40,352 nt of DNA from Deltaproteobacteria bacterium (GTDB lineage: Bacteria; Myxococcota_A; Polyangia; JAAYKL01), in the NCBI GenBank assembly GCA_030621515.1, contig JAUXHN010000013.1, positions 1-40,352 of the forward strand. The letters are read 5' to 3'. A program made the position numbers and the translations under genes. The notes beneath the pieces are model-generated. The model saw nothing but the letters and a program-made list of their open reading frames with translations. It ran no database searches and was not told the DNA's origin. Positions 1,374 to 23,794 of this stretch are shown here, in pieces (within the stretch, counting starts at the first letter, position 1; the number at the start of each line of letters is the position of its first letter).

Positions 1374-1454
1374 TTTAGGTGAAATTTGAAAAAACAAGAT
1401 CGGAAACCAGGCCGGTCTTCAACAGGTCGCTAAGCTTTTACAATGGAGGACAAT

Positions 1455-4400
1455 GTGAAAAGGGTCTCAAGACGATTGTTCATCGGAATTACCGGGGCAA
1501 GCGTTGTCAGCTGGCAACTCATCGGTTGCGATGACGACAAGAAAACGCCGCTGGTAGATGCAGGACCTGATGGGGGCGCGGGAATTTGCGCCATAGACGG
1601 TGAGACGCCCCCGGCGTGGGAAGACAACACCCACCTCAAGTACGGTGCGGTCAGCACTACGATTTGCCCTTACTGTGGTTGTGGTTGCGGCGCGATCGTG
1701 ACAACGGTTGGCGAGGGCGACGACGCGCTGGTGGTGAACATCGAGGGCGATCCCGATCACCCGGTCAACCGCGGCGCGCTCTGCTCCAAGGGCCAGGCGC
1801 TCTACCAGATTCGCAACAATGAGACGGGCTTCAGGCTGACCACGCCGCGTGTTCGTCGCGCCGGTGCGACAGAGTGGGAAGATGTCGACTGGCCTACCGC
1901 AATCAGCGAGATTGCGGCCAAGATCCGGACGACGCGCGACGCCACTTTCGAGACGACCGATGGAGGTGGCCGGACGGTCAACCGGACAACCGGAATTGCC
2001 TCTCTCGGCGGCGCGGCACTCGACACGGAAGAGTGCTACCTGATCGTCAAGGCCATGCGCGCAATGGGCCTGGTGTACATAGAGCACCAGGCACGAATAT
2101 GACACAGCGCAACTGTCGCCAGTTTGGCGGAAACTTTCGGTCGCGGTGCCATGACAAACCATTGGGTCGACATGAAGAACACGGATGTAGCGATGATTAT
2201 CGGCTCCAATGCTGCCGAGAATCACCCGATGTCCTTCAAGTGGCTCCAGGAAGGTCGCAAGAATCGCGGCACCAAAATTATCGCCGTTGATCCCAGGGTC
2301 ACAAGAACCTCGGCGGTGTCCGATTTGTACGCACCCATACGATCCGGCACCGACATTGCGTTTGTCAACGGCATCATCAATTACGCGTTGACCCGCAGCA
2401 GATATAATTATGATTACATTCGTTACTATACAAATGGATCATTACTCATTAATGCCGGTTACAATTTCGATCCGAGTACCGGATTCTTTTCCGGTTTTTC
2501 CGGTTCGGGGACCACGGGTACCGGTTCATACGACAAGTCGACTTGGGCGTACCAGACCGACGAGCAGACCGGCGCCGACGGCGCTGTAACCAGCGGTTCC
2601 GATGTCTTCACCGCAGCCGGCGCCACGTTCTCCACGGACCTGATCGGCAGGAAGATGTCCATCATTTCGGGTGCCAACACCGGCACGTTCACCATCGAGG
2701 GTGCCACCGCTACCACGTTAACTCTCACGGGCTATGCGCCTACTTCGACCGAGACGGGTCTCGATTGGGTCCTCCCTGGAATTCCCATCAAGGACCTCAC
2801 CATGTCCGACCCGAACTGCGTGTTCAACATCATGAAGGATCACTACTCTCGGTACACCCCCGAGATAGTGGAGAAGATCACCGGATGCCCGGCCGACAAG
2901 TTCCTCCATGTTGCCGAGCTTTACACATCGACCGGTCAGTCCGACAAGTGTGGAACAATCCTTTACGCCATGGGAACCACGCAGCACACCTACGGTACCC
3001 AGAACGTCAGGACCTATGCAATCCTGCAACTGCTCATGGGTAACACCGGCCTCTCGGGTGGCGGCATCAACGCGCTTCGCGGCGAGTCCAACGTTCAGGG
3101 CTCTACCGACATGGCGTTGCTGTTCCACATCCTTCCGGGTTACCTGAAGACGCCGCGCGCGTCCAACACCACGCTGGGTCTCGACACCGCCACTGGTAAT
3201 GATATCGTCTACAATCAAGATCAATATGATCCCGCTTTCATGGGGTTGACCACGGCGCTGCAGGATGAGGCCAAGGCATCGTTCCTGTGGAAGTGGACAC
3301 CCCAGAACAACGATCCTCAGAGCGCCAACTGGTGGCAGCATTCTCCCAAGTACATGATTTCGCTGCTCAAGGCTTTCTACGGCGACGCTGCAACTGCGGC
3401 GAATGATTTCTGTTACGATCACCTTGGCAAAATCGATGATGCCACCAACTATTCTCACATGTCGATTTTCGACAAAATCAATGACGGTACAATCACGGGC
3501 CTGATCTGTTGGGGCCAGAACCCCGCAGTGGGCGGACCCAGCGCCGGTTTCGAGCGAAGGGCCATGGCCAAGCTCGATTGGATGGTGTGTGTCGACTTGT
3601 GGGCGACCGACACATCGGTGTTCTGGGATCATGCAAAGGACGCGAGCGGCAACGACGTTGACCCGGCCGATATCGACACCGAGGTCTGGCAGCTTCCGGC
3701 CGCCGGTTCCTACGAAAAGGAAGGTTCTGTCGTCAATTCCGGCCGCTGGGCACAGTGGCGCTACAAAGCGGTCGACCCGCCCGGAGAGGCCAAGGACGAT
3801 GCCTGGATAGTCAGCGAGCTGGTGCTCGCACTGCAGGCCAACCCCGGCACAGCCTATCCCGCGGCTATCACGGATCTTTCATGGCCGTGCTACTCGGCAG
3901 GTGACGATCACGTAGATGTCGACCAAGTGGCCATGGAGATCAACGGCGAATACGTGGACGGCTCCGGTCCGGTCAAGAACTTTGTCGGCCTCGCGGCTGA
4001 CGGAACGACCACCTCCGGTAACTGGCTCTATTGCGGTCAGATCAATCAGGCCGATGGGCGCAACAGGCTCAAGGATCGTGACAACACCAACGCACAGGAT
4101 GTTTCGGGGATCGGACTTTACTCCGAGTGGTCGTGGTGCTGGCCGATCAACCGCCGCATCATTTACAACAGAGCATCGCTCAGGCCCGATACCCAGGAGC
4201 CCTGGGATCCCTACCGCGCGGTAATACTGGTCGACCAGGATCCGACCTCCGGTACGTACAAGAAACCGATCGCCGGTGATATTCCGGACGGCGGATGGGT
4301 AACCGATCCGACCGCCGGCAATGCGTACAGGCATCCCTTCATAATGAAGCCGGAGGGGCACAGCCGCTTGTTCGGAATGGGACGCGCGGACGGCCCGCTC

Positions 4401-4916
4401 ACCGAGCACTACGAGCCGATGGAGAGCCCGCTCTCCAGCTCCATCGTCAATCCGAGGGAGTTCACCCCGGCGGTTCACATCTACGGTGGCGAACAGGGTG
4501 AGTTCTCCGATTCGGCGCAATATCCAATTATCGCGACGACATACCGTGTCACAGAGCACTGGCAGGCCGGTTGTATGACGCGTAGCATCCCATGGCTTTG
4601 CGAGATGATGCCCTACATGTTCATCGAGATGAGCTACGAGCTCGCCGGGGAAAAGGGTATTGTGTCCGGCGATGAGGTTATCATTGACAACGTCAGAGGT
4701 GAGATCAGGGCGTACGCTATCGTCACGCACAGGTTCAAACCGTTTTACCTCAACGGTTCGGATCAGCCTACGCACCAGATTGGGATGCCGTGGCACTTTG
4801 GTCCTTCGGGATTGGCCACGGGTGATTCAGCAAACATACTTACGCCGCACGTTGGTGACTGCAACACGAGGATTCCCGAATACAAGGCATTCCTCTGTAA
4901 CGTGACGAAAGCATAG
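1455..4916 (+). CDS. fdnG: Formate dehydrogenase catalytic (alpha) subunit, selenocysteine-containing Tat lipoprotein
   Basis: Molybdopterin enzyme oxidising formate to CO2 on the periplasmic side; about 1153 residues. The reading frame crosses an in-frame UGA at 2100-2102 (codon 216), read as selenocysteine: the context ARI-U-H followed by TVASL and FGRGAMTNHW matches the FdnG/FdoG active site. The N-terminus has a twin-arginine motif (SRRLF, R6-R7) ending in a lipobox, LIGC with Cys25 followed by Asp. C71, C74, C78 and C110 bind a [4Fe-4S] cluster. The C-terminal half (TTYRLTEH, NRRILYNRAS, NTLTPHVGD-like end) aligns with FdnG to the last residues. About 75 extra residues (codons ~370-447) interrupt the family pattern. 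GTG 1455 is preferred because GGAGGA (1445-1450) precedes it; ATG 1443 overlaps that site and would add four residues. First gene of a six-gene operon. Confidence 0.93.
2100..2140 (+). promoter_or_regulatory. UGA selenocysteine codon with bacterial SECIS hairpin
   Basis: Downstream of UGA (2100-2102), CGCCA (2117-2121) pairs with TGGCG (2125-2129) around a GTT loop. The apical loop lies about 20 bases after the UGA and contains GU, as SelB-binding SECIS elements in formate dehydrogenase mRNAs do. The lower stem is imperfect. Known biology: SelB and tRNA-Sec decode such codons. Their genes are not in this window. Confidence 0.85.
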
Positions 4917-4928
4917 GGAGGCAACACA

Positions 4929-5747
4929 ATGGCAAAAGTAAAAGTAATCGATCTTTCTCTCTGCCAGGGCTGCCGCGGTTGTCAGGTTGCATGCAAGCAG
5001 TGGAACCAGCTTCCTGCGGTCACCCAAGAAGAGGGCCTGAATATGGGCTCATACGAGAACCCACCCGATCTCAGCGCCAAGACCTGGAATCTCGTGCGTT
5101 TTCATGAGTTCTTGAACTCGGACGGATCGGTCCAGTTCACCTTTTTCCCGGATGCGTGCCGTCACTGCCCGGAGCCGTTCTGCATGCAGTACTGCCCGGT
5201 TGAAGGCGCAATCACGAAGGATCCCGACACCGGCGCGGTTGTTATTCACAGCGAGCTGTGTGGCGATTGCTGCGGAGAGTGTGTAGCCCAGTGCCCGTAT
5301 GGCATTCCCAAGTTGGAGACGTCAATGGATGACGACGGGGCTGTCACAACCTACTACCGTGCGTACAAGTGCAAGCTGTGCAACGATCGCGTTACCAGTA
5401 ACGTGGGCGGCGATAACACAGTTGCCGCCGGTCAGGATCAGACCGCGCTGGGAGTTCTCCCGTCCACTGCAATTGAGGCGGTTCCAGCTTGCGCCAAGAC
5501 ATGTCCGGCAGGAGCAATTCAATTCATCGACGAGAGTTTGCTCACCAACACCAATACCTATCCTGGTACGGGTTATAGCGCGCAGTGGATCCTCAACCGT
5601 TCGGCCGAGGATCTGGGTCTCACGCCGGCAACCATGGCAGATGCCCAACCGAAGAAAACCGAACCCCAGGATCGTCGCTCCGCGCTGGCTGGATTGTTGA
5701 AGCCGCTTGGAATCGGAATGCTCAAGGACGACAAGAGGAAGGGTTAA
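4929..5747 (+). CDS. fdnH: Formate dehydrogenase iron-sulfur (beta) subunit, four [4Fe-4S] clusters, no membrane anchor
   Basis: A 272-residue ferredoxin-like electron-transfer subunit that would take electrons from the catalytic subunit. Four cysteine groups are visible: CQGCRGCQVAC at residues 12-22, CRHCPEPFCMQYCP, CGDCCGECVAQCP and the split pair CKLCNDR...CAKTCP, giving four cubane clusters. E. coli FdnH ends in a transmembrane helix that contacts the cytochrome b subunit. Here the C-terminus is charged and hydrophilic (DDKRKG) with no helix. The protein has no signal peptide, so it is presumably exported by hitch-hiking with the Tat-targeted alpha subunit. It starts 12 bases after fdnG with a good ribosome site (GGGAGG). 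The lost anchor fits the missing gamma gene and suggests another electron acceptor. Confidence 0.93.
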   Translation: MAKVKVIDLSLCQGCRGCQVACKQWNQLPAVTQEEGLNMGSYENPPDLSAKTWNLVRFHEFLNSDGSVQFTFFPDACRHCPEPFCMQYCPVEGAITKDPDTGAVVIHSELCGDCCGECVAQCPYGIPKLETSMDDDGAVTTYYRAYKCKLCNDRVTSNVGGDNTVAAGQDQTALGVLPSTAIEAVPACAKTCPAGAIQFIDESLLTNTNTYPGTGYSAQWILNRSAEDLGLTPATMADAQPKKTEPQDRRSALAGLLKPLGIGMLKDDKRKG

Positions 5748-5755
5748 GGAGCGAA

Positions 5756-6613
5756 GTGGCTGAGCAGATAGGCGAGTCCAAGCCTCCGACCGACGGCGGG
5801 AGCAACAAGTTTCCAGTGGAAGAGTTCGCTCGATTTCACGGGAAGCTGAAGGAGATACGCGCTTCATTGGCGGCGTCGCTGGACGAAAAGGGTGAAATTT
5901 CACCGCTCACCGGCGACGTCGTTAGCGAGCGAATTTCCAGTGGGAAAACAGCTCTGGAGCTACCGGTGGCTCTGCCCGAGGAAGGGGCCCTTTATGATGC
6001 AGCGATTCGCATACTGGATATAGCCGTAGAAAACGATGTGTTCGACAAACCAGAGGCCGACGCCGCGAAGAAAGTCATCGAAGGCGGCGGTCTCGACATC
6101 GTAGCATTGACAAGTGTTGTAGTGACCGGTGATTCATACACAGTCGAAAAGGCTGCATTGGATTCCGGACTGGCTCTGGATACACTTTTGTTCCTGGTGG
6201 AACAGTTCGCGCGCGCCACGCTTACCTGGCATTCGGCCAGGGTCACGGGCTTGCTTGAAGACGAAGTGAAAACTTCGCGGACAGGCACTTGCCCGGTGTG
6301 TGGCAACCACCCCCGTCTCTCCATCATCGAGGGCGAGGAAGGAGTGCGCAAGCTGGCTTGCGGCATGTGCGAAACGATATGGCGCTACAAGCGTATCGGG
6401 TGTCCGTTTTGCGGCAGCGAAGATCAGAAAAAATTCAGGCGGTTCACGGTTGACGACGAGCCTGGATTGAGCGCGTTACTTTGCAATGTCTGCAAGAGAT
6501 ACTTGAAACAAATTGATCGTAGAAAACTGGGCGACGGCGAGTACGACGTCACCGAATTAGAAACGATGAGTTCGCGCTTCGACATTCTTGCGCGGCGAGA
6601 GGGATACAGGTAG
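5756..6613 (+). CDS. fdhE: FdhE, formate dehydrogenase maturation protein
   Basis: A 285-residue cytoplasmic accessory protein needed for activity of respiratory, Tat-exported formate dehydrogenases. The C-terminal half has the family's four CxxC pairs in rubredoxin-like knuckles: CPVCG, CGMCE, CPFCG and CNVC, the first followed by NHPRLS and the third preceded by YKRIG. The start is GTG 5756, preceded by AAGGAG (5746-5751) and eight bases after fdnH. Longer versions starting upstream would lie inside fdnH. The N-terminal part is poorly conserved, as usual. E. coli FdhE has about 309 residues, so the length is normal. Its presence supports a functional exported enzyme. Confidence 0.9.
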   Translation: MAEQIGESKPPTDGGSNKFPVEEFARFHGKLKEIRASLAASLDEKGEISPLTGDVVSERISSGKTALELPVALPEEGALYDAAIRILDIAVENDVFDKPEADAAKKVIEGGGLDIVALTSVVVTGDSYTVEKAALDSGLALDTLLFLVEQFARATLTWHSARVTGLLEDEVKTSRTGTCPVCGNHPRLSIIEGEEGVRKLACGMCETIWRYKRIGCPFCGSEDQKKFRRFTVDDEPGLSALLCNVCKRYLKQIDRRKLGDGEYDVTELETMSSRFDILARREGYR

Positions 6614-6626
6614 GAGGGCTGAGTCG

Positions 6627-7220
6627 ATGAAAAGTCGGAAACCAATAACTCAATTCATTCTGATGAGCCTGATCGTCGGCATGAGCATATGTCTGGCGGC
6701 TTGTCTCGAGGTACGCAACGAAGAGGATGTCGACGGCGGCGCTGATAACAGTTGCGAAATGTGCCACTCCCTTGGAGAAAGCGCTGCGCATGCCGCGCAC
6801 CTCGCCCCGCAGGTTTTCGGGCAGCCGATGGTCTGCGGGGATTGTCACATGATCCCTGACGATTGGTATGTCGAGGGGCATATGGACGGTGATGTACAGG
6901 TCATTTTCCCCGAGGGGAGCATTGCGAGGGCTAACGGCCTCGAAGCCGAGTGGGACGGCGCGAAGTGTGTGAACGTACACTGTCATGGCGCCGGACTGAG
7001 CGGTGGAACGTATACGGAGCCGTACTGGAGCGATACTCTGGAGGCGGGCATGCAATGTGGCATGTGTCACGCTATCCCGCCGCAGGACGGACACCCCGCA
7101 TCCGGGTCATGTTCCGAGTGCCACTCCGCTGCATATGTGGATGGAAAGCTTGACACGAATGTCCACATCAACGGATATACTGACTTTGCATCCACGAGCG
7201 ATGGAGGAGTGGAACAGTGA
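6627..7220 (+). CDS. Pentahaem c-type cytochrome lipoprotein with a CX4CH haem site
   Basis: A 197-residue secreted lipoprotein: a hydrophobic signal ends in the lipobox LAAC (Cys26). Five haem attachment motifs follow in order: CEMCH, CGDCH, CVNVHCH (CX4CH), CGMCH and CSECH. A CX4CH followed by CXXCH is the pattern of the Geobacter CxxxxCH/CXXCH domain. Leu after the lipid cysteine is compatible with outer-membrane sorting under the E. coli rule, though that rule may not hold here. ATG 6627 is chosen because the signal peptide starts there; an earlier ATG at 6588 lies inside fdhE. It overlaps the next gene by four bases. It probably passes electrons between the formate dehydrogenase and the barrel-cytochrome complex. 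Confidence 0.85.
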   Translation: MKSRKPITQFILMSLIVGMSICLAACLEVRNEEDVDGGADNSCEMCHSLGESAAHAAHLAPQVFGQPMVCGDCHMIPDDWYVEGHMDGDVQVIFPEGSIARANGLEAEWDGAKCVNVHCHGAGLSGGTYTEPYWSDTLEAGMQCGMCHAIPPQDGHPASGSCSECHSAAYVDGKLDTNVHINGYTDFASTSDGGVEQ

Positions 7221-8890
7221 AGTGGTTCTCAATTACAGCATTCATGCTTCTGATCGCGTCGAACGCCTGGGCTCAGGAAGAGGTCGCCGCCGAAGAAGCA
7301 CCCCCGGATGACAATGCGCCAGGCGATGCCGCCTCCGAGCCACCTGAGGAGGGTAAGGACGCACCCGCGCAACCGGATACCGGAGAAGCCGCCGAGCCTG
7401 CCGGCGAGGAGACTTCCGAGGAACCGGCGCAACCCGAAACCGCCGCCGCCGGTGAGGAGGGTGACGTAGAGGAGTCCTCCAAAGAGGCGAGTGCGCAGGA
7501 GGAGGTCGATCCGGCATCGGATCCTCCGGTGGTAACCGTTGTGGCAAGTCCCGACGATCTGAACACAAGGATCTCCGGTCGATTTCGCTCCGAGATGTTC
7601 ATGTCGCAAAGCCCACGGATGCGTCATCTCGGAGGTGGACGTTACGGTGTTCGTAGCGACAACGTGTTTCCATTTTATGAAACGATCGAGTTGCGGGCGG
7701 ACGAAATTGGCCACAAGGGTCTGTCCATCCATTTCCAGGGATGGGCCGGACTCGATCTGGCCGATGTCCATTTCGACCAGCGCTTTGTGGCCGATCCCAC
7801 GTACTTGTATCTTCAGTTTCGGGACTACGGCGCCGACATCAAGCTCGGCCGGCAGGCGATCTATTCCGGCACGACACAGGGTCTGACGATCGACGGTATT
7901 TACGCGTCGTACGAATCTCCGATCCACCTGGGCATCGAAGCGCTGGGCGGGCTCGTTGTGTCTCCCTATCGCGGCCCCGAGTGGTACAGAGAACAACCTG
8001 CGAATCTCGATTACGATGACTTCGGAGGAGCCGGTTTCAGCGATTGGGAGCGCGAGGGCGACTATGCGGTCGGCGGGAGGCTTTTCTACCGAATGTCGGG
8101 GAAAGTTTCAGCCGGCGCTTCAATTCTGCACGTAACGGAGTTGGACGAAATAGATCGACAGCTTTTCGGTGTCGATCTCGATATGACCCCGCTCAAGTGG
8201 TTCGGCGCTACCGGAAACGCGACGATGGATCTGTTGTCCACGAGGCTGCGTGAAGCAAACCTCGGCCTGGATTTCTACCCCGTCGATGTGCTCACGTTGA
8301 GTGTGGAGTACCGGCACGCCGATCCGACCCTCTACCTGTCGCATATGTCCATCTTCTCCGTCTTCTCGATGGAGGAGTACGATTCGGTTGGCGGCATGGT
8401 GCGTCTCAAGCCGCTCGATTGGCTGGGTATGCACGCCGGGTATCACCAGCATTTCTACAGCTTCATCGAGGATGTCTCGGATGGAGTCGATGTTCTATAC
8501 GGTGATGAAATCGAGCTGGGATACGAGGTACACGCTGGTGTTTCCGCGAATTTCGGGATGCAACAAGCCGGGCTTGTGTTGCTCGATTACCGCCGCCTCG
8601 GCGGGGACGAGCAGGGTATAAACCAACTCAGGCTCGGAACGATGATCCCCCTCGGGATGCCGGAACTGCGGGCCTCTGCCAATGTCTACCTGGATTTCTA
8701 TGACCAGGAAATCAACGAGGAAGATGTCGGGTTCCTGGGCGATCTGGGTCTTTTCTACGGCAACGATACAATCGAAGCCGGTGGTTCCGTGGCGGCAGGC
8801 GCCAATCCTTACGCGCGGCACGAAGTCAGAGGCATGCTGAAGTTCAATTACAACTTCGACGTCAGCTTCGTAGAGCGGAGGCAGCCATGA
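7217..8890 (+). CDS. Outer-membrane beta-barrel protein with long acidic N-terminal region (putative porin of a porin-cytochrome conduit)
   Basis: A 557-residue protein. A signal peptide ends at NAWA (residue ~19). Residues 20-105 are a low-complexity Glu/Ala/Pro stretch. From about 115 onward there are many short amphipathic strands with alternating hydrophobic residues and aromatic girdles (for example YLYLQFRDYGADIKLGRQ, LTLSVEYRHADPTLYL), typical of a barrel. GTG 7217 overlaps the preceding stop, and the next gene's ATG overlaps its own stop, so it is co-translated between two multihaem lipoproteins. That order matches porin-cytochrome modules of metal-reducing bacteria, in which a barrel houses a haem wire. 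I do not recognise a specific family, and a plain porin remains possible. Confidence 0.75.
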   Translation: MKWFSITAFMLLIASNAWAQEEVAAEEAPPDDNAPGDAASEPPEEGKDAPAQPDTGEAAEPAGEETSEEPAQPETAAAGEEGDVEESSKEASAQEEVDPASDPPVVTVVASPDDLNTRISGRFRSEMFMSQSPRMRHLGGGRYGVRSDNVFPFYETIELRADEIGHKGLSIHFQGWAGLDLADVHFDQRFVADPTYLYLQFRDYGADIKLGRQAIYSGTTQGLTIDGIYASYESPIHLGIEALGGLVVSPYRGPEWYREQPANLDYDDFGGAGFSDWEREGDYAVGGRLFYRMSGKVSAGASILHVTELDEIDRQLFGVDLDMTPLKWFGATGNATMDLLSTRLREANLGLDFYPVDVLTLSVEYRHADPTLYLSHMSIFSVFSMEEYDSVGGMVRLKPLDWLGMHAGYHQHFYSFIEDVSDGVDVLYGDEIELGYEVHAGVSANFGMQQAGLVLLDYRRLGGDEQGINQLRLGTMIPLGMPELRASANVYLDFYDQEINEEDVGFLGDLGLFYGNDTIEAGGSVAAGANPYARHEVRGMLKFNYNFDVSFVERRQP

Positions 8891-9945
8891 GGATGAAAAA
8901 TTTCGACAGAAGCCTGATATTCCTCGCCAGCGTGGCCCTCGTTGCAGCCTGTACGGCCGCAAATCAGAACGGTCGTGACACAATTGTCTTCTCCCATCAC
9001 GTTCACGCAGAGCAGGGAATGGAGTGCGGCGATTGCCACGGGGACGTCAACAAGGATGCCGAGCAAAAAGTGTACGCCTTTCTCAAGATGGAAGGATGCG
9101 CGGATTGCCACGATATCGAGAGCGAGGACAACTGTTCCAAGTGCCATACCAACGCGGATGAGCCGGACACCTATGACAGACCCAAGGCGACGCATATAAT
9201 CTTCTCGCATCAGCTTCACGAAGATCGATCATCCGATTGCGCGGACTGTCACGCCGACGCGGCGCATGCGGCCGACATCTCTCCGAAGAACAGACTGATT
9301 CCACAACACGTGGAGTGCAATGCATGTCACCAGGAGGACATGGATTCCGGACGCTGCCAGCTCTGCCATGATCGATTGGATCTCAACCAGCGCAAGCCGG
9401 AAACCATCTACTCTCACGAGGAAGGGTTCTTCAAACGGCACGGACTCAAGGCGGCGGCGGGAGAAGCTGAACAGTGCGCGATCTGCCATGATCAGTCATT
9501 CTGCGGTGATTGTCATAACAGGACAATGACAGTACGTCCCTCACTGAGATTCCCCGAGCGCGTGGACAGGAACTTCATTCACCAGGGTGATTGGATGTCC
9601 CGCCATGCCATAGAGGGTCGTATCGGGGACACCGGCTGCATGAAGTGTCACGGCACATCATTCTGCTCTTCGTGTCACGAGCGCAATGGGATCGGCGGCC
9701 ATCTCGGAATGCGCAACCCGCACCCGGCCGACTGGATGGCCCCTCGTACGGCGACATCGCACAGCCGCGCAGCAAGGCGCCGGATCATAGAGTGTGCGTC
9801 CTGTCACGACCAGGGTCCGAGTTCCAACTGCTTGCATTGCCACAGCAGCGGCGGCGTCAACCCGCATCCCCCGGGCTGGAAATCTCCGGTACCCAGGAGC
9901 GAGCGTACGACGCACAAGATGTGCAGGATCTGTCACAGCATCTAG
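8887..9945 (+). CDS. Thirteen-haem c-type cytochrome lipoprotein
   Basis: A 352-residue lipoprotein with lipobox VAAC (Cys22). Thirteen CXXCH motifs are readable in order: CGDCH, CADCH, CSKCH, CADCH, CNACH, CQLCH, CAICH, CGDCH, CMKCH, CSSCH, CASCH, CLHCH and CRICH, spread from about residue 47 to the C-terminus. Extra histidines (FSHHVH, FSHQLH) could be distal haem ligands. One haem per ~27 residues is the density of outer-membrane conduit cytochromes. It overlaps the barrel gene by four bases (ATGA) and ends the operon. It is likely the wire through, or the terminal electron donor or acceptor on, the outer membrane. Which side it faces cannot be told from sequence. Confidence 0.88.
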   Translation: MRMKNFDRSLIFLASVALVAACTAANQNGRDTIVFSHHVHAEQGMECGDCHGDVNKDAEQKVYAFLKMEGCADCHDIESEDNCSKCHTNADEPDTYDRPKATHIIFSHQLHEDRSSDCADCHADAAHAADISPKNRLIPQHVECNACHQEDMDSGRCQLCHDRLDLNQRKPETIYSHEEGFFKRHGLKAAAGEAEQCAICHDQSFCGDCHNRTMTVRPSLRFPERVDRNFIHQGDWMSRHAIEGRIGDTGCMKCHGTSFCSSCHERNGIGGHLGMRNPHPADWMAPRTATSHSRAARRRIIECASCHDQGPSSNCLHCHSSGGVNPHPPGWKSPVPRSERTTHKMCRICHSI

Positions 9946-9975: not shown

Positions 9976-10077
9976 AAGATCCTGCGTAGGGCCTCCGAAG
10001 CAGGACAACCAAAACGAAAAACAAGACGTAAACAAAAGCATTAACGGTCCTGCTTCGGAGGCCCTACGCAGGATCTT
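9976..10077. repeat. Large perfect inverted repeat after the fdn operon
   Basis: Two 31-base arms (9976-10006 and 10047-10077) are exact reverse complements around a 40-base A-rich centre. The arm includes CCTGCGTAGGGCCTCCGAAG. It lies 30 bases after the 13-haem cytochrome stop. There is no T-run after the second arm, so it is not a standard intrinsic terminator, though an RNA hairpin this stable would stall polymerase or protect the mRNA end. The perfect arms would also fit a small non-autonomous mobile element; I see no clear target duplication. Confidence 0.8.
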
Positions 10078-12962: not shown

Positions 12963-13391
12963 ATGAAGAACCTGATTGTTTTGGTGCTGCTCATATTCAT
13001 GGTTACGGGGTCTGGCCTTTCGGTGGGATGCGCCGACGATGACGACACCTCCACCGATACCGACACGGACACCGACACGGACACCGACACGGACACCGAC
13101 ACAGATACGGATAGCGATACCGGTACGGAAGGTGAGTTACTGCTTGACAGTTCTCATACCTCCTGGGGTATCAGCCCGGCGTGTCGGTCCGTGACCTGCC
13201 ACCCGGATTCCCACCACAGCGATATGTCGATATCCGGGTGTGTTCCCTGTCATGGGACCAACGGTGGCCAGGTGGAGGATCATCAGAACTGCAACCTCCC
13301 GGGAGCGGGACAGGATCCTTGCCACGGTGATTTTCACGGGGACGAGGCGGATGGATTTCCGCCCGGGACCTGCGGGCCGTGCCACAGTTAG
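12963..13391 (+). CDS. Small Asp-Thr-tethered multihaem lipoprotein
   Basis: A 142-residue lipoprotein with lipobox SVGC at residues 20-23. Residues ~30-55 are a (Asp-Thr)n tether that would hold the C-terminal domain away from the membrane. The domain carries CRSVTCH (CX4CH), CVPCH and CGPCH, plus an odd CX9CH (CNLPGAGQDPCH), and is rich in His. The pattern again resembles the Geobacter CxxxxCH/CXXCH domain, so it is likely a small periplasmic or surface cytochrome with three or possibly four haems. The ribosome site AGAGGA precedes ATG 12963. It starts a three-gene run of envelope proteins (12963-15249). The 180 bases upstream are A/T-rich and contain a TTGACA at 12812, but no clear -10. 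Confidence 0.75.
   Translation: MKNLIVLVLLIFMVTGSGLSVGCADDDDTSTDTDTDTDTDTDTDTDTDTDSDTGTEGELLLDSSHTSWGISPACRSVTCHPDSHHSDMSISGCVPCHGTNGGQVEDHQNCNLPGAGQDPCHGDFHGDEADGFPPGTCGPCHS
13053..13127 (+). repeat. Coding tandem repeat for the Asp-Thr linker
   Basis: Repeats of 6 and 12 bp (GACACGGACACC) encode alternating Asp-Thr residues in the lipoprotein at 12963-13391. Such arrays can change length by slippage. Related arrays occur at 28603-28752 and, less regular, near 11500-11570. Confidence 0.85.
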
Positions 13392-18205: not shown

Positions 18206-21200
18206 ATGAAAACGAACCCCCTTTTCCTTATGTTGTACATCGCGGTTGTCGTGAATCCCGGATGCGGTGCGCCGACAACCACCACGACCGGCGTCGTCTC
18301 GCCCCTGGTGGTGACGTCGTTTTCCCCCCGGGACGTCATGGACGATCGTGACGAGACCATTCGCATTCAGTTCGACCGGCCGGTGGTCGGCGAGGACGAG
18401 GTGGGGATCTCGGTTGCGAGACCGCCGGTGGCCATCGAGCCCGCCGCAGAGTTAGCGGCAATGTGGGACGATCGTCAGACTCTCGTCATCTCCGTGGTTG
18501 GCGAACTCGATCCGTCCACTCGCTACACAGTGAAATTGACGGGAGATATCGCCGAGCGGATCGATGATGAGGAATTCTCGTTCATCTACAAGCCCCTCGA
18601 ACTCGAAAAGCACTTCGGCGTCAACCTCCGCTGGACCGACACCATGCCGAGGATAGGCCTGGTGTTCAATCAGCCGGTCAGCGCTGCCGATCTTTCGGAC
18701 ATGTGCGTCATCGAGAGCGAGTCCGACCGCAGCAGGGTTCCAGTGGATACCGCAGACGACGCTCTGACCGGCGAGGAGATGGTTCTGTCGCCTTCCCGGG
18801 AGCTCGAGCAGGGAAGGCGGTACACGCTGGTTTGCGAAGGCCTCTCGGGCGCCTCGGGGGATATTGCTATGGAGTCTGCCCTGGAGATCGATTTCTGGAC
18901 CCGCCCGGTTTTCGAGATCGTCGATTTCCAGCCGGTGGGCAACGATATCTGGTCGGACGAGGTGAACATTGAGATCGAGTTCTCTACCCCCGTGGATGCA
19001 GAGAAGCTCAAAGGCGCACTGAGATCGCGTCCGAAGATCGCCGGGCTCGACAAGGGGACCTTCGACCTGGACGGCACGCGATACAGGGTCATGGTCGATC
19101 TGAAGTCATCCACCGATTACAAGGTTTCGTTCGACAAACCCCTCACGGATATCTTCTCGCAGAGCCTGAGCGACAAGTTCACCAGGTCATTCACAACTGG
19201 ACAGGCCCGGCCCCGACTGGTCATGGAGACCGGCATCTTCGCGGTAGAAACCGCAAACGAAGGCGGCGCCTACCCCGTATGGACCAAGAACCTCTCGCGT
19301 TTCGACGTGACCTGCGCGCGGGTGCCCAAGCGCAAGGTGGTGGGGTTGCTCACGGGATCCATGAATTACGACCCCTGGTACGACGCGGGGGACAACCGTG
19401 ACCTGGATTGGAAGAAGCTGGGCCTCAAGAAGAAGAAGCGCAATGTGAAGATCAAGAAGGCCAAAGATAAGTGGCACCTGTCGAATATCCGTTTCGACAA
19501 GCTTTGCGGAGGGGGGAAGGGGAAGGGCAAGGGCAAGGGCCTTTTCATGGCGGAGATGAACTCGGACCAGGTGAAGCTCGATGAGGACTACCCGTGGCGA
19601 TATCATCCGAGAAAGAGAGTTCTGGCGAACCTGACCGACCTGGGCGTGCTGGTCAAGGCGGGCTCCGCAGCCGGGCTCGTGTGGGTCACGGGTTTGAGCG
19701 ACGGAGCTCCCGTGGAAGCTGCCCGGGTGACTGTCTATACGCCGCGCGGTCGCAAGGCTTTCAGTGGTACCACGGACAGTGACGGCATCCTCCGGGTTCC
19801 CGGAGCGGACGAATTACTCAGGCAGGACGGGGCGGGCGACAAGGACGATCATGAGGACGAGTGGGGCTACGATGAGTACGACACCTGGCGCTCCAGGCGT
19901 CTGATCGTGGTGGTGGAAAAGGGCGCGGACATGGCCGTGGTGGACGGCAACTGGTCGAACGGGATCCAGATATGGAACTTCGGTGTGACCGCCGACTATC
20001 GGGGTGGTGAGACGCGCCTGAGGGGGTTCATCCTCTCGGACAGGGGGATCTACCGACCGGGCGAGACGGTTCACTTCAAGGGGCTCATTCGCCAGGTGGC
20101 GCTCGGGAAATCGCCCAGTGTTCCAGATAATGCCCGGGTGGCTCTCCACGTGGAGGACAGTCGCGGCTCGACCGTGCTGGAGCGGTCGGTGAGGTTGTCC
20201 AGGTACGGGGGGTTCGGATTTGATCTGAAACTCGGGAAAGAGTCGAGCCTCGGTGATTACTACGTGACCGCGACGGTCAAGGGCCGGACGTTTCGCGAGA
20301 GCTTCATAGTGGAGGAGTTCAAGAAGGTCACCTACGAGCTGAAAATGAGTTCCACGAAACGCCACACCCGACTTGGCAAGAAGCTCCGGTTCGACCTCAC
20401 CGCCGACTATCTCTTCGGGGCCCCCGTGAGTAACGCCGACATCGAATGGACCGTTTCCCGCAGGCCCCATCATCTCCACTTTCCCGATCATGAGCAGTAC
20501 ACTTTCGCGGACGATGCGGCGGATGGGTGGAGCTACTGGTGGTGGGAAAGGGATGACAACCGTTACATGAGCTTCGTCTCCGACGGAGGCGGGCTGACGG
20601 ATGAGCGAGGCAGGTACGGGTTCACGGTGCGCGACGAGGTAGCGGATCTGAAGGGACCTCAGGATTACGTCATTCAGGTGACAGCGCAGGATCAGACGGG
20701 CGAGACCGTCAGCAAACGGATGTCGGTTACCGCCCATCGCTCGGATGTCTATGTGGGCCTGCATGCCCAGGAGTGGGTGCAGGCGGTAGGGATGCCGTTC
20801 TCGGTCAACACTATCGCGTTGAGCCCACAAGGAGAGCAGCTGCCGTTAAAGGCCAGGCTCAGTTATGTCCGACAGAGGCAGGTATGTACTCACAAGGGTA
20901 GATATCGCTCGATTTCGACGTGTGAGCTGAAGCACGACAAGGTGTGGTCGCGAATCGTCGATATACCCGGCACCGGCACCGGGACAGAGCGGATAATGCC
21001 AGAGGAGCCCGGCGAGTACGTGATCCGGCTGGATGGCGAGGATTCCGCGGGGAACAAGGTATCGGCCTCCCGGTTTGTGTGGGTGCTCGGCAAGGGTGAG
21101 GCCTTCTGGAGCGGCGACGAGTCGGCGCGTATGTCCCTGGTTGCCGGGAAGTCGAAGTACGAGCCTGGCGAGATCGCAAAGCTGGCGCCGCGAAGCTCCC

Positions 21201-23794
21201 TGGGTCCGTCCATTGCCCTGGTGACCCTCGAGCGCAACGGGATCATCGACGCGTTCGTGAAGAAGATGGACAACGCGGGGCAGGGCATCGAGGTTCCCGT
21301 CAAGGAGGCGTATGCGCCGAACCTGTTCGTGTCCGTGTCGATGGTCAAGGGAAGGACGGGCGAGGGGGATCGCCATCGGCCGAGGTTTCAGATGGGTATC
21401 GTGGAGCTCGATGTCACGACAGGGCACCAGCGCCTCGACATCAATATCAAAATGGACAAGAAGAGCTACGAGCCGGGGCAGAAGGTCAACGGCGTGATAC
21501 GGGTCCTGTCGGGCGGCAAGCCGGTGAAATCCGAAATCGCGGTTTCCGTTGCGGACGAGGGTGTTCTATCGCTCATCGGCTACAAGACGCCCGATCCCAT
21601 GAAAACATTTTACAAGGCGTGGGGCCTCGGTGTGGACAACGCCACCAATCTCAACCGGATCTCCCGGCTCAACGATCCGCGGGTCATCGACCCGGACGAG
21701 GGCGGAGACTCGGGTGATGGTGGCGGGCCCGACGTGCGCTCCCGTTTCGTGTCGTCCGCTTTCTGGGCATCGAGCCTTGAAACCGATGAGAGAGGAGAGG
21801 TGAAATTCAGCTTCATCGCTCCGGATAACCTCACCGCTTTTCGGGTGATGGCCGTTGCCGCCGATACGGGCTCCAGGTTCGGATCCGGCGAGAAACGCTT
21901 CACTGTTAAAAAGCCGCTCTTGCTTCGTTCGCTCCTGCCGCGGTTCATTTCCACGGGGGATCGGATCCGGGCGGGCGTGGAGATCCGGAACCTGACTGGC
22001 CGGGGCGGGAAGGCGAAAGTTACGGTATCGGCCGCGGGCTGCAAGTTGGCGAAGCGAAAGAAGACGGTTGAGATTTCCCGGGGCGGATCGGCGGTGGTGA
22101 GGTTCCCGGCGACCGCGCAAATGAGCGGGCACGCAACCTTCACCTTCAGGGTTTCCATGGGAGAGCATTCGGACGCGGTGAAGATCAAGATCCCGGTCAA
22201 GCGCCCCATGGCGCTGGACAAGAAGGTCCTCTCCCGCGGCAGATCGGATGGAAAATCGAGGGTGGCCCTCTCCTGGGGGGATGAAGTGATCGAGAAGGAG
22301 AGCCGCCTGGAGGTCACCGTGGACAGGACCGGCCTCAGCGAGCTCGCTCCTAGCTTGAGGTACCTGGTAGAGTACCCCTACGGATGCCTGGAGCAGACGT
22401 TGTCGCGATTGATTCCCCTGCTCAAGGTGAAGGACCTGGCAGGGTCCATGGATATCAAGGATCTTAAAGGACCCAGGCTTCGAAAGTTCATCAAGCTGGG
22501 ACTGGCCAAGGTCGTGCGTCACCAGCACGATGACGGGCATTTCAGCCTGTGGCCCGGCGGCGTGACCTATCCTCACCTTACGATCTATGCCCTCTTTGGT
22601 CTCAGCGAGGCGAAGCGCGCCGGCGTGAAGGTCGACGAGAATGCGATCGCTCGCGGTGTCACGGCCGTCAGGAGGTGGGCGAACGAGAAGGGCCACTCCA
22701 TCGACTCGCCTGGAGAGGGTGGAACCCTTGCGATGGCGGCCTACGTGCTGGCCGAGCTGGGCCAGGCCGACACCGGGCTCAACGCTCGATTGTTCGAAAA
22801 GCGTGCGGGGTTGCCCGTGTATGGAAAGGCGTTCGCGCTGTTGGCTATCGGGGCCTCGGGAGGATCAAAGGAGGAGATGCGGATTCTGGAGGAGGATATC
22901 CTTGCGGAACTGGTTGGCAAGCGCGGCGTCGTGAAGGTTCGCGAGAGGTCCGACATGCGAAAGTACATGAGCTCCGACGTACGATCGTCGGCGATTGTTC
23001 TGGCGGCGTTGCTGCGTTTCAACCCGAAGAACAAGAAGATCTCCGGGCTGGTCGAGGGGTTGCGTCGGGAACAGAAGCCGGGCGGATACTGGGGAAGCAC
23101 CCAGGACAACAGCTATGCCCTGGTGGCGCTCGCCGACTACGCGAGGGCGATGAAAAAGGGAAATCTCCATGTGACCATCAGGCTGAACGGCAAAAAGCTC
23201 ATTGCCCGGCGCCTGACCGGTAACCAGATCCTTTCGTACTCGCGCCCCCTGAGCCGCATCAAGAGAGGAGACCTGGAGATCGAGACGGACGGTCCCGCGC
23301 GCCACTCGGTGAGGCTGGTGCTGGCGGCCTCCGACGACCGGTCCAGGAGCGTGGAGCGGGGGTTTTCGCTGAAGAGGGAGTACCTGGATCCCAGGAGCGG
23401 GGAGCGCATGACACGGTTCAGGGTAGGGGACCTCGTGCGGGTCAAGATTACCGTTCAAACACCGAAGGACAGGGCCTACGTGGCCGTCGTCGATCGGTTA
23501 CCGGCGGGGTTCGAGGCGGTCAACACGCGGCTGGCCACGTCGGTGCAGGACACCCGTGCGCAGGAGCCCCGGGATCGGTGGTACTGGCGGCCGGGCTGGA
23601 CACACACCGAGCTGAAGGACGATCGCGTGCTCGCCTTCGCGGACAGGATGGTGTCCGGGGAACTGGAGATGATGTATCTGGCCAGGGCCGTAACCCCCGG
23701 GACGTTCACCGCCGCTCCGGCCGGTGCGGAGGCGATGTACGAGCCGGAGGTAAACGGCCGCACGGTATCGAGGAAGGTCGAGGTGGGGCGGTGA
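18206..23794 (+). CDS. Bacterial alpha-2-macroglobulin with intact thioester
   Basis: An 1862-residue periplasmic protease trap. A signal peptide ends at NPGC; the lipobox is poor, so lipidation is uncertain. Ig-like macroglobulin repeats follow, then the family block DRGIYRPGE at about residues 612-620, the A2M domain (SSAFWASSLETD...FIAPDNLTAFRVMA, ~1180-1215) and the thioester YGCLEQ with Cys1394 and Gln1397. A helical thioester domain and a receptor-binding-like C-terminus complete it. An unusual Lys/Gly-rich segment (~403-450, with KKKKR and GKGKGKGKG) interrupts the N-terminal half. Length exceeds E. coli YfhM (1653). GTGA overlap with pbpC is the widespread pairing, thought to combine trapping of invading proteases with cell-wall repair. 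ATG 18206 follows AAGAGAGG. Confidence 0.93.
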   Translation: MKTNPLFLMLYIAVVVNPGCGAPTTTTTGVVSPLVVTSFSPRDVMDDRDETIRIQFDRPVVGEDEVGISVARPPVAIEPAAELAAMWDDRQTLVISVVGELDPSTRYTVKLTGDIAERIDDEEFSFIYKPLELEKHFGVNLRWTDTMPRIGLVFNQPVSAADLSDMCVIESESDRSRVPVDTADDALTGEEMVLSPSRELEQGRRYTLVCEGLSGASGDIAMESALEIDFWTRPVFEIVDFQPVGNDIWSDEVNIEIEFSTPVDAEKLKGALRSRPKIAGLDKGTFDLDGTRYRVMVDLKSSTDYKVSFDKPLTDIFSQSLSDKFTRSFTTGQARPRLVMETGIFAVETANEGGAYPVWTKNLSRFDVTCARVPKRKVVGLLTGSMNYDPWYDAGDNRDLDWKKLGLKKKKRNVKIKKAKDKWHLSNIRFDKLCGGGKGKGKGKGLFMAEMNSDQVKLDEDYPWRYHPRKRVLANLTDLGVLVKAGSAAGLVWVTGLSDGAPVEAARVTVYTPRGRKAFSGTTDSDGILRVPGADELLRQDGAGDKDDHEDEWGYDEYDTWRSRRLIVVVEKGADMAVVDGNWSNGIQIWNFGVTADYRGGETRLRGFILSDRGIYRPGETVHFKGLIRQVALGKSPSVPDNARVALHVEDSRGSTVLERSVRLSRYGGFGFDLKLGKESSLGDYYVTATVKGRTFRESFIVEEFKKVTYELKMSSTKRHTRLGKKLRFDLTADYLFGAPVSNADIEWTVSRRPHHLHFPDHEQYTFADDAADGWSYWWWERDDNRYMSFVSDGGGLTDERGRYGFTVRDEVADLKGPQDYVIQVTAQDQTGETVSKRMSVTAHRSDVYVGLHAQEWVQAVGMPFSVNTIALSPQGEQLPLKARLSYVRQRQVCTHKGRYRSISTCELKHDKVWSRIVDIPGTGTGTERIMPEEPGEYVIRLDGEDSAGNKVSASRFVWVLGKGEAFWSGDESARMSLVAGKSKYEPGEIAKLAPRSSLGPSIALVTLERNGIIDAFVKKMDNAGQGIEVPVKEAYAPNLFVSVSMVKGRTGEGDRHRPRFQMGIVELDVTTGHQRLDINIKMDKKSYEPGQKVNGVIRVLSGGKPVKSEIAVSVADEGVLSLIGYKTPDPMKTFYKAWGLGVDNATNLNRISRLNDPRVIDPDEGGDSGDGGGPDVRSRFVSSAFWASSLETDERGEVKFSFIAPDNLTAFRVMAVAADTGSRFGSGEKRFTVKKPLLLRSLLPRFISTGDRIRAGVEIRNLTGRGGKAKVTVSAAGCKLAKRKKTVEISRGGSAVVRFPATAQMSGHATFTFRVSMGEHSDAVKIKIPVKRPMALDKKVLSRGRSDGKSRVALSWGDEVIEKESRLEVTVDRTGLSELAPSLRYLVEYPYGCLEQTLSRLIPLLKVKDLAGSMDIKDLKGPRLRKFIKLGLAKVVRHQHDDGHFSLWPGGVTYPHLTIYALFGLSEAKRAGVKVDENAIARGVTAVRRWANEKGHSIDSPGEGGTLAMAAYVLAELGQADTGLNARLFEKRAGLPVYGKAFALLAIGASGGSKEEMRILEEDILAELVGKRGVVKVRERSDMRKYMSSDVRSSAIVLAALLRFNPKNKKISGLVEGLRREQKPGGYWGSTQDNSYALVALADYARAMKKGNLHVTIRLNGKKLIARRLTGNQILSYSRPLSRIKRGDLEIETDGPARHSVRLVLAASDDRSRSVERGFSLKREYLDPRSGERMTRFRVGDLVRVKITVQTPKDRAYVAVVDRLPAGFEAVNTRLATSVQDTRAQEPRDRWYWRPGWTHTELKDDRVLAFADRMVSGELEMMYLARAVTPGTFTAAPAGAEAMYEPEVNGRTVSRKVEVGR

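Follow-up and report, generated by a model that had tools for sequence, protein, structure and literature searches.

A selenocysteine formate dehydrogenase encoded in one operon with a predicted outer-membrane cytochrome conduit

Introduction

The extracellular dimethyl sulfoxide (DMSO)/iodate reductase DmsEFAB of Shewanella oneidensis is encoded by one operon that combines a molybdoenzyme, an iron-sulfur subunit, an outer-membrane barrel and a multihaem cytochrome (PMC11302344). Barrel genes also adjoin multihaem cytochrome genes, at least one of them for a lipoprotein, in the Pcc/Omc/Ext conduits of Geobacter and Anaeromyxobacter and in OetABI of seep sulfate reducers; these known clusters lack a formate dehydrogenase (FDH). 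Here we describe a six-gene operon in which a selenocysteine (Sec) FDH is joined to a predicted conduit. It lies on a contig of 40,352 nucleotides (JAUXHN010000013.1, our C185), called the window below, from a deltaproteobacterial genome (GCA_030621515.1, our G000; 4.64 Mb in 346 contigs, 95.9% complete, 1.2% contaminated).

Soluble periplasmic FDHs of the FdhAB/FdhABC3 type normally have no gamma subunit (PMC13397495), and those of sulfate reducers work with TpIc3 and Qrc (PMC13397495; PMC4215793). In Desulfovibrio, Qrc takes electrons from periplasmic FDH via cytochrome c3 to menaquinone (PMC4215793). The natural partners listed to date for periplasmic FDHs comprise multihaem cytochromes that feed menaquinone, as well as menaquinone, NAD, ferredoxin, F420 and hydrogenase, and a 2026 review of FDH partners places none at the outer membrane (PMC13397495). 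A Deferribacter cluster has an annotated 'formate dehydrogenase' among cytochromes, and the D. desulfuricans counterpart of that gene aligns to cytochrome b561 (PMC13186404). We found no published FDH–conduit operon in the open-access literature. The initial annotation of the window knew of no characterized operon joining the two modules, which holds for FDH in that literature, although another molybdoenzyme–conduit operon (DmsEFAB) is characterized.

Results

A six-gene operon conserved within the genus

The operon occupies window positions 1443–9945, with all genes on the + strand in the order fdhA, fdhB, fdhE, c5, barrel, c13. The genes, together with features inside fdhA, are as follows.

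1443–4916, + strand: fdhA, Sec formate dehydrogenase alpha subunit and predicted Tat lipoprotein (1157 residues; TIGR01553, PDB matches, in-frame TGA, Tat motif plus lipobox)
2100–2102, + strand: Sec codon TGA (Sec220), the sole in-frame TGA of fdhA
2103–2150, + strand: hairpin like a selenocysteine insertion sequence (SECIS), directly after the TGA; folds in the window and in locus L137 of CP070770
2565–2780 (approximate), + strand: FdhA insertion of ∼70 residues (alignment of 18 FdhA)
4929–5747, + strand: fdhB, ferredoxin-like beta subunit (Pfam Fer4_11 and TIGR01582 matches; cysteines for about four 4Fe-4S clusters)
5756–6613, + strand: fdhE, FDH maturation protein (GTG start; Pfam FdhE_central above cut-off, TIGR01562 weak)
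6627–7220, + strand: c5, 5-haem lipoprotein (four CXXCH and one CX4CH; Pfam Cytochrome_C7 and GSu_C4xC__C2xCH; TIGR01904)
7217–8890, + strand: barrel, predicted outer-membrane beta-barrel (GTG start; 22–23 strands, AlphaFold2 and Foldseek)
8887–9945, + strand: c13, 13-haem lipoprotein and conserved barrel partner (352 residues, 13 CXXCH)

Gaps of 12, 8 and 13 bases separate fdhA–fdhB, fdhB–fdhE and fdhE–c5, and c5/barrel and barrel/c13 overlap by 4 bases each. The initial annotation had given the six genes, their order, strand and tight packing in the same way; its end at 9945 stands, while the start moves from 1455 to 1443, 12 bases upstream. It had also named a terminator dividing fdhE from the cytochromes as evidence against a single unit. 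The operon contains no terminator-like site at its gene junctions, and the sole strong one precedes its six genes.

1–449: 3′ end of the 23S rRNA (Rfam)
580–696: 5S rRNA (Rfam)
706–731, + strand: intrinsic terminator behind the 5S rRNA (11-pair stem, then T9), dividing the rRNA operon from the fdh operon

This terminator makes co-transcription of the fdh operon with the rRNA unlikely.

Distribution was followed in a phylum sample of 284 genomes and a class survey of 318. The same six-gene order, which the initial annotation had proposed to look for in related genomes, is complete in one sister species of the same Myxococcota genus (G364) and present in another (G363), where a contig end inside the barrel gene splits it. 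In both, rRNA genes lie just upstream. The genes downstream of the operon in G364 differ from those of the window; the unit was therefore retained while its flank changed. The ratio of non-synonymous to synonymous substitution rates (dN/dS) is 0.05–0.29 for all six genes in all pairs of the three species, and the operon genes are under purifying selection. Because the sister species share this order, and part of it recurs in the CP070770 cluster described below, we reject an assembly artefact or chance neighbours.

The two modules differ greatly in distribution. Relatives of c13 occur in 176 of the 284 phylum genomes, the closer ones usually in the order c5-like–barrel–c13 without FDH, whereas FdhA was found in 10 (E ≤ 1e-50). 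Near-identical FdhA is confined, within the class survey, to the two other species of the genus. Beyond the genus, other members of the family (G155, G353, G356–G358, G360) have the conduit (c13 at 50–57%) and no such FdhA; in G155 and G360 the conduit stands behind genes resembling FHA-domain proteins. The c13–barrel family also appears at L136 and L159, in genomes labelled Bdellovibrionota and Nitrospirota, and is thus not limited to Myxococcota.

A second lineage with FDH beside the conduit

Among 43 loci fetched from named genomes with the c13 profile, one outside the genus carries an FDH. This is L137 of CP070770, whose GTDB class holds two genomes compared with 318 in the class of the window. 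The order there is fdhE, 13 bases, barrel, c13 (13 haems), response regulator, histidine kinase, Sec fdhA and fdhB. The CP070770 FdhB (L137:16834–18018) reads on into the C-terminal domain of an AMP-binding enzyme, possibly through a frameshift or as a true fusion, and the next gene encodes electron-transfer flavoprotein alpha.

In the FdhA tree, the FDH-plus-conduit groups of the window genus and CP070770 are sisters (support 95/96). In the c13 tree the two lineages do not fall together, and a forced single clade is rejected by the approximately unbiased test (p-AU 4.2e-5). FDH and conduit modules therefore have different histories; the trees suggest that FDH was linked with members of this conduit family on two occasions, or that an FDH already linked had its conduit exchanged. 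The conflict fits repeated joining or conduit swap, not passive co-inheritance of one cassette, and thus favours functional coupling more than the operon alone would. At L156 (8017–18881) a conduit of the same family precedes a 30-haem protein and a Qrc-type set (QrcB-, QrcC- and NrfD-like). The inner redox partner of the conduit family therefore looks exchangeable, and swapping the inner electron module seems to be a habit of the family.

The FDH is of the periplasmic FdhAB/FdhABC3 type

FdhA scores 1099.5 bits against TIGR01553 (formate dehydrogenase-N alpha; cut-off 814.2), and its closest solved structures (PDB) are the periplasmic FdhA enzymes of the Desulfovibrio group. Sec220 lies in the context ARIUHSATVASLAETFGRGAMTNHW, and SelB is encoded in G000, G363, G364 and the CP070770 genome. 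The 21-nt tract ACUGUCGCCAGUUUGGCGGAA after the TGA is identical in the window and L137, while the FdhA proteins are 56% identical; this conserved tract would fit what is expected of a SECIS. The folding z-score of the hairpin is only −0.7 in the window and −2.2 in L137.

FdhA begins with a twin-arginine translocation (Tat) motif (SRRLF) and a lipobox (LIGC; acylated Cys29 predicted), with ∼40 residues before the first iron-sulfur cysteines, and should therefore be a tethered lipoprotein. Among 18 aligned FdhA, the Tat motif and lipobox occur together only in the window genus, CP070770 and G098 (C25), which sets FdhA of both lineages apart from most others of the phylum. All three species of the genus share the Thr/Gly/Ser-rich insertion of ∼70 residues, which no other FdhA of this set has. 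The start of the protein is acidic and Asp-rich, a trait of many lipoproteins in the genus, including a 20-haem cytochrome of G364. We also considered Asp at position +2 as an inner-membrane retention signal; since acidic residues are common there in the genus, it is uninformative.

No membrane helix was found on FdhB (top 19-residue hydropathy 1.03), in line with the initial annotation. That annotation had also stressed the missing cytochrome b gamma subunit. None is encoded in the operon, but such absence is normal for the FdhAB/FdhABC3 type (PMC13397495), and the window FDH is of this type. A gamma subunit elsewhere in G000 was rejected: the sole PF01292 match above cut-off occurs in a fusion with a TtrB-like protein, next to a PhsA-like enzyme, and two further, weak cytochrome b matches lie in loci without FDH genes. 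G009 and G098, from the same phylum, share the FdhA-B-E order of the window and have a 4-haem lipoprotein next; c5 therefore occupies the place of their cytochrome subunit.

In searches of G000, FdhA was the sole candidate FDH. Other candidates were discarded, C19 for want of a Cys/Sec ligand, C100 as PhsA-like and C196 as QrcB-like. The C19 protein, FdhA/NuoG-like and without a Cys/Sec-His motif, was likewise dismissed as a cytoplasmic FDH that supplies formate. Its cluster (C19:68–14938; L073) holds an 8-haem cytochrome beside Rnf-like genes, the FdhA/NuoG-like protein fused to a NuoE-like domain, and then a NuoF-like protein; we take it to recall the Rnf–cytochrome operon of Methanosarcina. 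Because neither pyruvate formate-lyase nor a formate channel (FocA) was found in G000, formate probably comes from outside the cell.

The conduit: barrel and multihaem lipoproteins

Motif counts and lipobox signal peptides on both c5 and c13 agree with the 5-haem and 13-haem lipoproteins of the initial annotation. In 2000 composition shuffles of c13, the mean number of CXXCH motifs was 0.17 and the maximum 3, against 13 in the protein, and the haem motifs are largely invariant among its relatives. Solved multihaem cytochromes that the c13 profile matches include 3ov0, ACIII subunit A and MtrA chains. The profile reaches 1.4e-7 against 6r2q_A, which we take to be MtrA although the structure file names it otherwise; many other multihaem proteins match too, several more strongly. 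The DmsE decahaem model is matched by 5 of 31 c13-family members.

The AlphaFold2 model of the barrel has 22–23 strands, with barrel residues mostly at predicted local distance difference test (pLDDT) scores > 90, and a disordered, acidic and Pro/Ala-rich N-terminal segment (residues ∼20–110). The best Foldseek matches are outer-membrane barrels including AlgE and OpdK, with low TM-scores. No Pfam or NCBIfam family was found for the barrel, nor at a meaningful E-value for 31 of its relatives, and no named family fits. By usual geometry, the calculated backbone diameter of a 22-strand barrel is near 40 Å, which should be wide enough for a haem protein rod. A barrel too narrow for a haem protein, which the initial annotation had named as grounds for doubt, is thus not what the model predicts.

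G000 has a second barrel and 13-haem pair (C241:12979–15548; L052:6980–9549), only distantly related to the window conduit, which is also kept in G363 and G364. G364 also has a third, larger cluster (L126:4868–11509, on C27) with a probable barrel, a 25-haem protein and a 20-haem lipoprotein.

A Qrc-type menaquinone reductase in the same genome

G000 encodes a Qrc-type menaquinone reductase cluster (C196:767–6175; L074) of QrcA, QrcB-like, QrcC and QrcD proteins. QrcA scores 211 bits (cut-off 180) and QrcD 536 (cut-off 570); QrcC is close to its cut-off. Because a periplasmic cytochrome:menaquinone reductase of this type is present, the earlier proposal that formate electrons leave the cell without quinone does not follow.

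Comparison with described systems

By analogy, DmsEFAB would be the closest functional precedent, here turned to an electron donor. In both, a molybdoenzyme–iron-sulfur pair has a barrel and a multihaem cytochrome as its partners. The enzyme of DmsEFAB is a DMSO reductase, a terminal reductase, whereas FdhA is a Sec FDH that scores 89.9 bits against TIGR02166 (DMSO/selenate reductase family; cut-off 777.7). Since its catalytic subunit is an FDH, the operon is not a member of DmsEFAB; it differs further in a barrel without a named family, in 13 rather than 10 haems on the cytochrome, and in the additional 5-haem lipoprotein.

As in Pcc, the barrel is encoded next to a multihaem c-type cytochrome (AlphaFold2, Foldseek, 13 motifs). 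Pcc cytochromes of Anaeromyxobacter and Kuenenia have 12–14 haems in 338–344 residues (PMC4245776), close in size and haem count to c13 (13 haems in 352 residues). An MtrB/PioB-type barrel, as in MtrCAB, was not found: MtrB stood outside the top 50 Foldseek matches, and the 31 relatives gave no family.

With Desulfovibrio FdhABC3/FdhAB the operon shares the FdhA and FdhB type, Sec, Tat export, a beta subunit without a helix, the lack of a membrane gamma subunit and a multihaem cytochrome partner. In place of the tetrahaem cytochrome c3 that is the third subunit of FdhABC3 there is a 5-haem lipoprotein of C7/CX4CH type; c5 is moreover linked with a barrel and a 13-haem protein, and a lipid anchor is predicted for FdhA. 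FDH-N (FdnGHI) belongs to the same TIGR01553 family as FdhA; here, unlike FDH-N, the operon has no cytochrome b gamma subunit and the beta subunit no membrane helix.

Discussion

The operon is real and conserved, and it was assembled more than once or had its conduit replaced. Gene content, gene order, conservation, signal peptides, haem motifs and the predicted barrel can be read from the sequence. That FDH is joined to a conduit, as first annotated, is supported by the operon in three species and by the similar cluster in a second lineage.

We give about an even chance to the operon being a dedicated wire for electrons from formate to the exterior. FdhAB would be matured by FdhE, exported by Tat and tethered in the periplasm to a membrane via the FdhA lipid, and would oxidize formate arriving from outside. 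Electrons would exit via the FdhB iron-sulfur clusters to c5 and/or c13, and c13, held inside the 22–23-strand barrel, would allow them to cross the outer membrane to an external acceptor; part of them may branch into menaquinone via Qrc. We infer the mechanism, that is, the physical contacts, the carrier order, the direction (formate oxidation or CO2 reduction) and the membrane side of each lipoprotein.

Several points weigh against such a wire. The most serious is energetic: a periplasmic FDH that sends electrons outward builds no proton-motive force on its own, and its benefit must therefore lie elsewhere, such as in a Qrc branch or in reducing an acceptor of use to the cell. The model of c13 has low confidence (mean pLDDT 61), gave uninformative Foldseek results and cannot show insertion into the barrel. 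The CP070770 cluster has no c5, and two regulator genes separate its conduit from FdhAB; the clusters thus differ, and the long branch of L137 in the c13 tree calls for caution over the rejected clade. Absences from an assembly that is ∼96% complete are no proof. The argument as a whole draws on sequence and models.

The main rival is a shared periplasmic cytochrome pool, which we consider unlikely but credible. FdhAB and the conduit would be co-expressed and both would trade electrons with periplasmic cytochromes; as in Desulfovibrio, most formate electrons would reach menaquinone through Qrc, leaving the conduit as an alternative inlet or outlet. In its favour, G000 encodes a QrcA above its cut-off and QrcC and QrcD proteins near theirs, the periplasmic FDHs of sulfate reducers employ TpIc3 and Qrc (PMC13397495; PMC4215793), and the Qrc route conserves energy. 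The FDH operon, however, includes a conduit instead of a menaquinone module in two lineages, and the separate barrel and 13-haem pair on C241 could already serve a general pool.

A mirror image of DmsEFAB, whose conduit places the molybdoenzyme on the outer membrane (PMC11302344), appears quite unlikely to us. FdhAB on the outer face of the outer membrane would oxidize formate, and the conduit would carry electrons inward to periplasmic cytochromes and Qrc. The Tat signal and lipobox of FdhA would be compatible with an outer-face enzyme, and its acidic, Asp-rich start is shared with many lipoproteins of the genus, including the 20-haem cytochrome. Formate, however, enters the periplasm readily, so an external FDH would gain little, and the c5 lipoprotein would be left without a clear role.

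Very unlikely in our view is a quinone-free, reversible converter between formate and extracellular electrons, in which a lipid-anchored Sec FDH would be docked on a trans-outer-membrane haem wire, turn CO2 and electrons from partner cells or minerals into formate or run in reverse, and would have been assembled more than once by inner-module swaps. We see only a slight chance of a wire running inward, with external electrons (from partner cells or reduced minerals) entering via the conduit and FdhAB reducing CO2 to formate that is used or exported without quinone. The two other species of the genus bear CSMAG isolate names, which we take to denote cold-seep genomes, and extracellular electron donors occur there; against this, CO2 reduction needs electrons of very low potential, menaquinone-free entry offers no obvious energy gain, and a formate channel was not found in G000. 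Accidental neighbours, an FDH that landed upstream of an unrelated conduit in an order kept only through the closeness of three species (dS 0.1–0.6, with conduits very common in the phylum), are barely credible given the rarity of FdhA there, the overlapping or nearly overlapping genes without internal terminators, and a second lineage with fdhE directly beside barrel–c13.

The exchange of formate between species and direct electron transfer are generally regarded as distinct currencies of anaerobic communities. The operon of this presumably cold-seep-associated genus suggests a direct hand-over of formate electrons to an acceptor beyond the cell. If it is the dedicated formate-to-exterior wire that we prefer, it would be a hard-coded exchange point between the two currencies, whose interconversion would become testable with one six-gene cassette. 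It would also add an outer-membrane destination for periplasmic FDHs and offer biotechnology a model from nature for wiring electrodes to an enzyme that interconverts CO2 and formate.

Other features of the window

Between the 5S rRNA and fdhA (757–1290) lies a direct repeat of two copies ∼296 bases apart and 71–75% identical. One copy ends ∼150 bases ahead of fdhA, and the core is also found in G364; it is a possible regulatory element. Just past c13 (9976–10077) is a perfect 31-nt inverted repeat with a 40-nt loop. Being without conservation in the sister species, it was rejected as a terminator, and it looks like a small mobile or repeat element. A small lipoprotein with an Asp-Thr repeat spacer and 2–3 haem motifs is encoded a few kb downstream of the operon (12963–13391), and positions 18206–23794 encode an 1862-residue protein that resembles bacterial alpha-2-macroglobulins and has a Big_5 domain at its N terminus.

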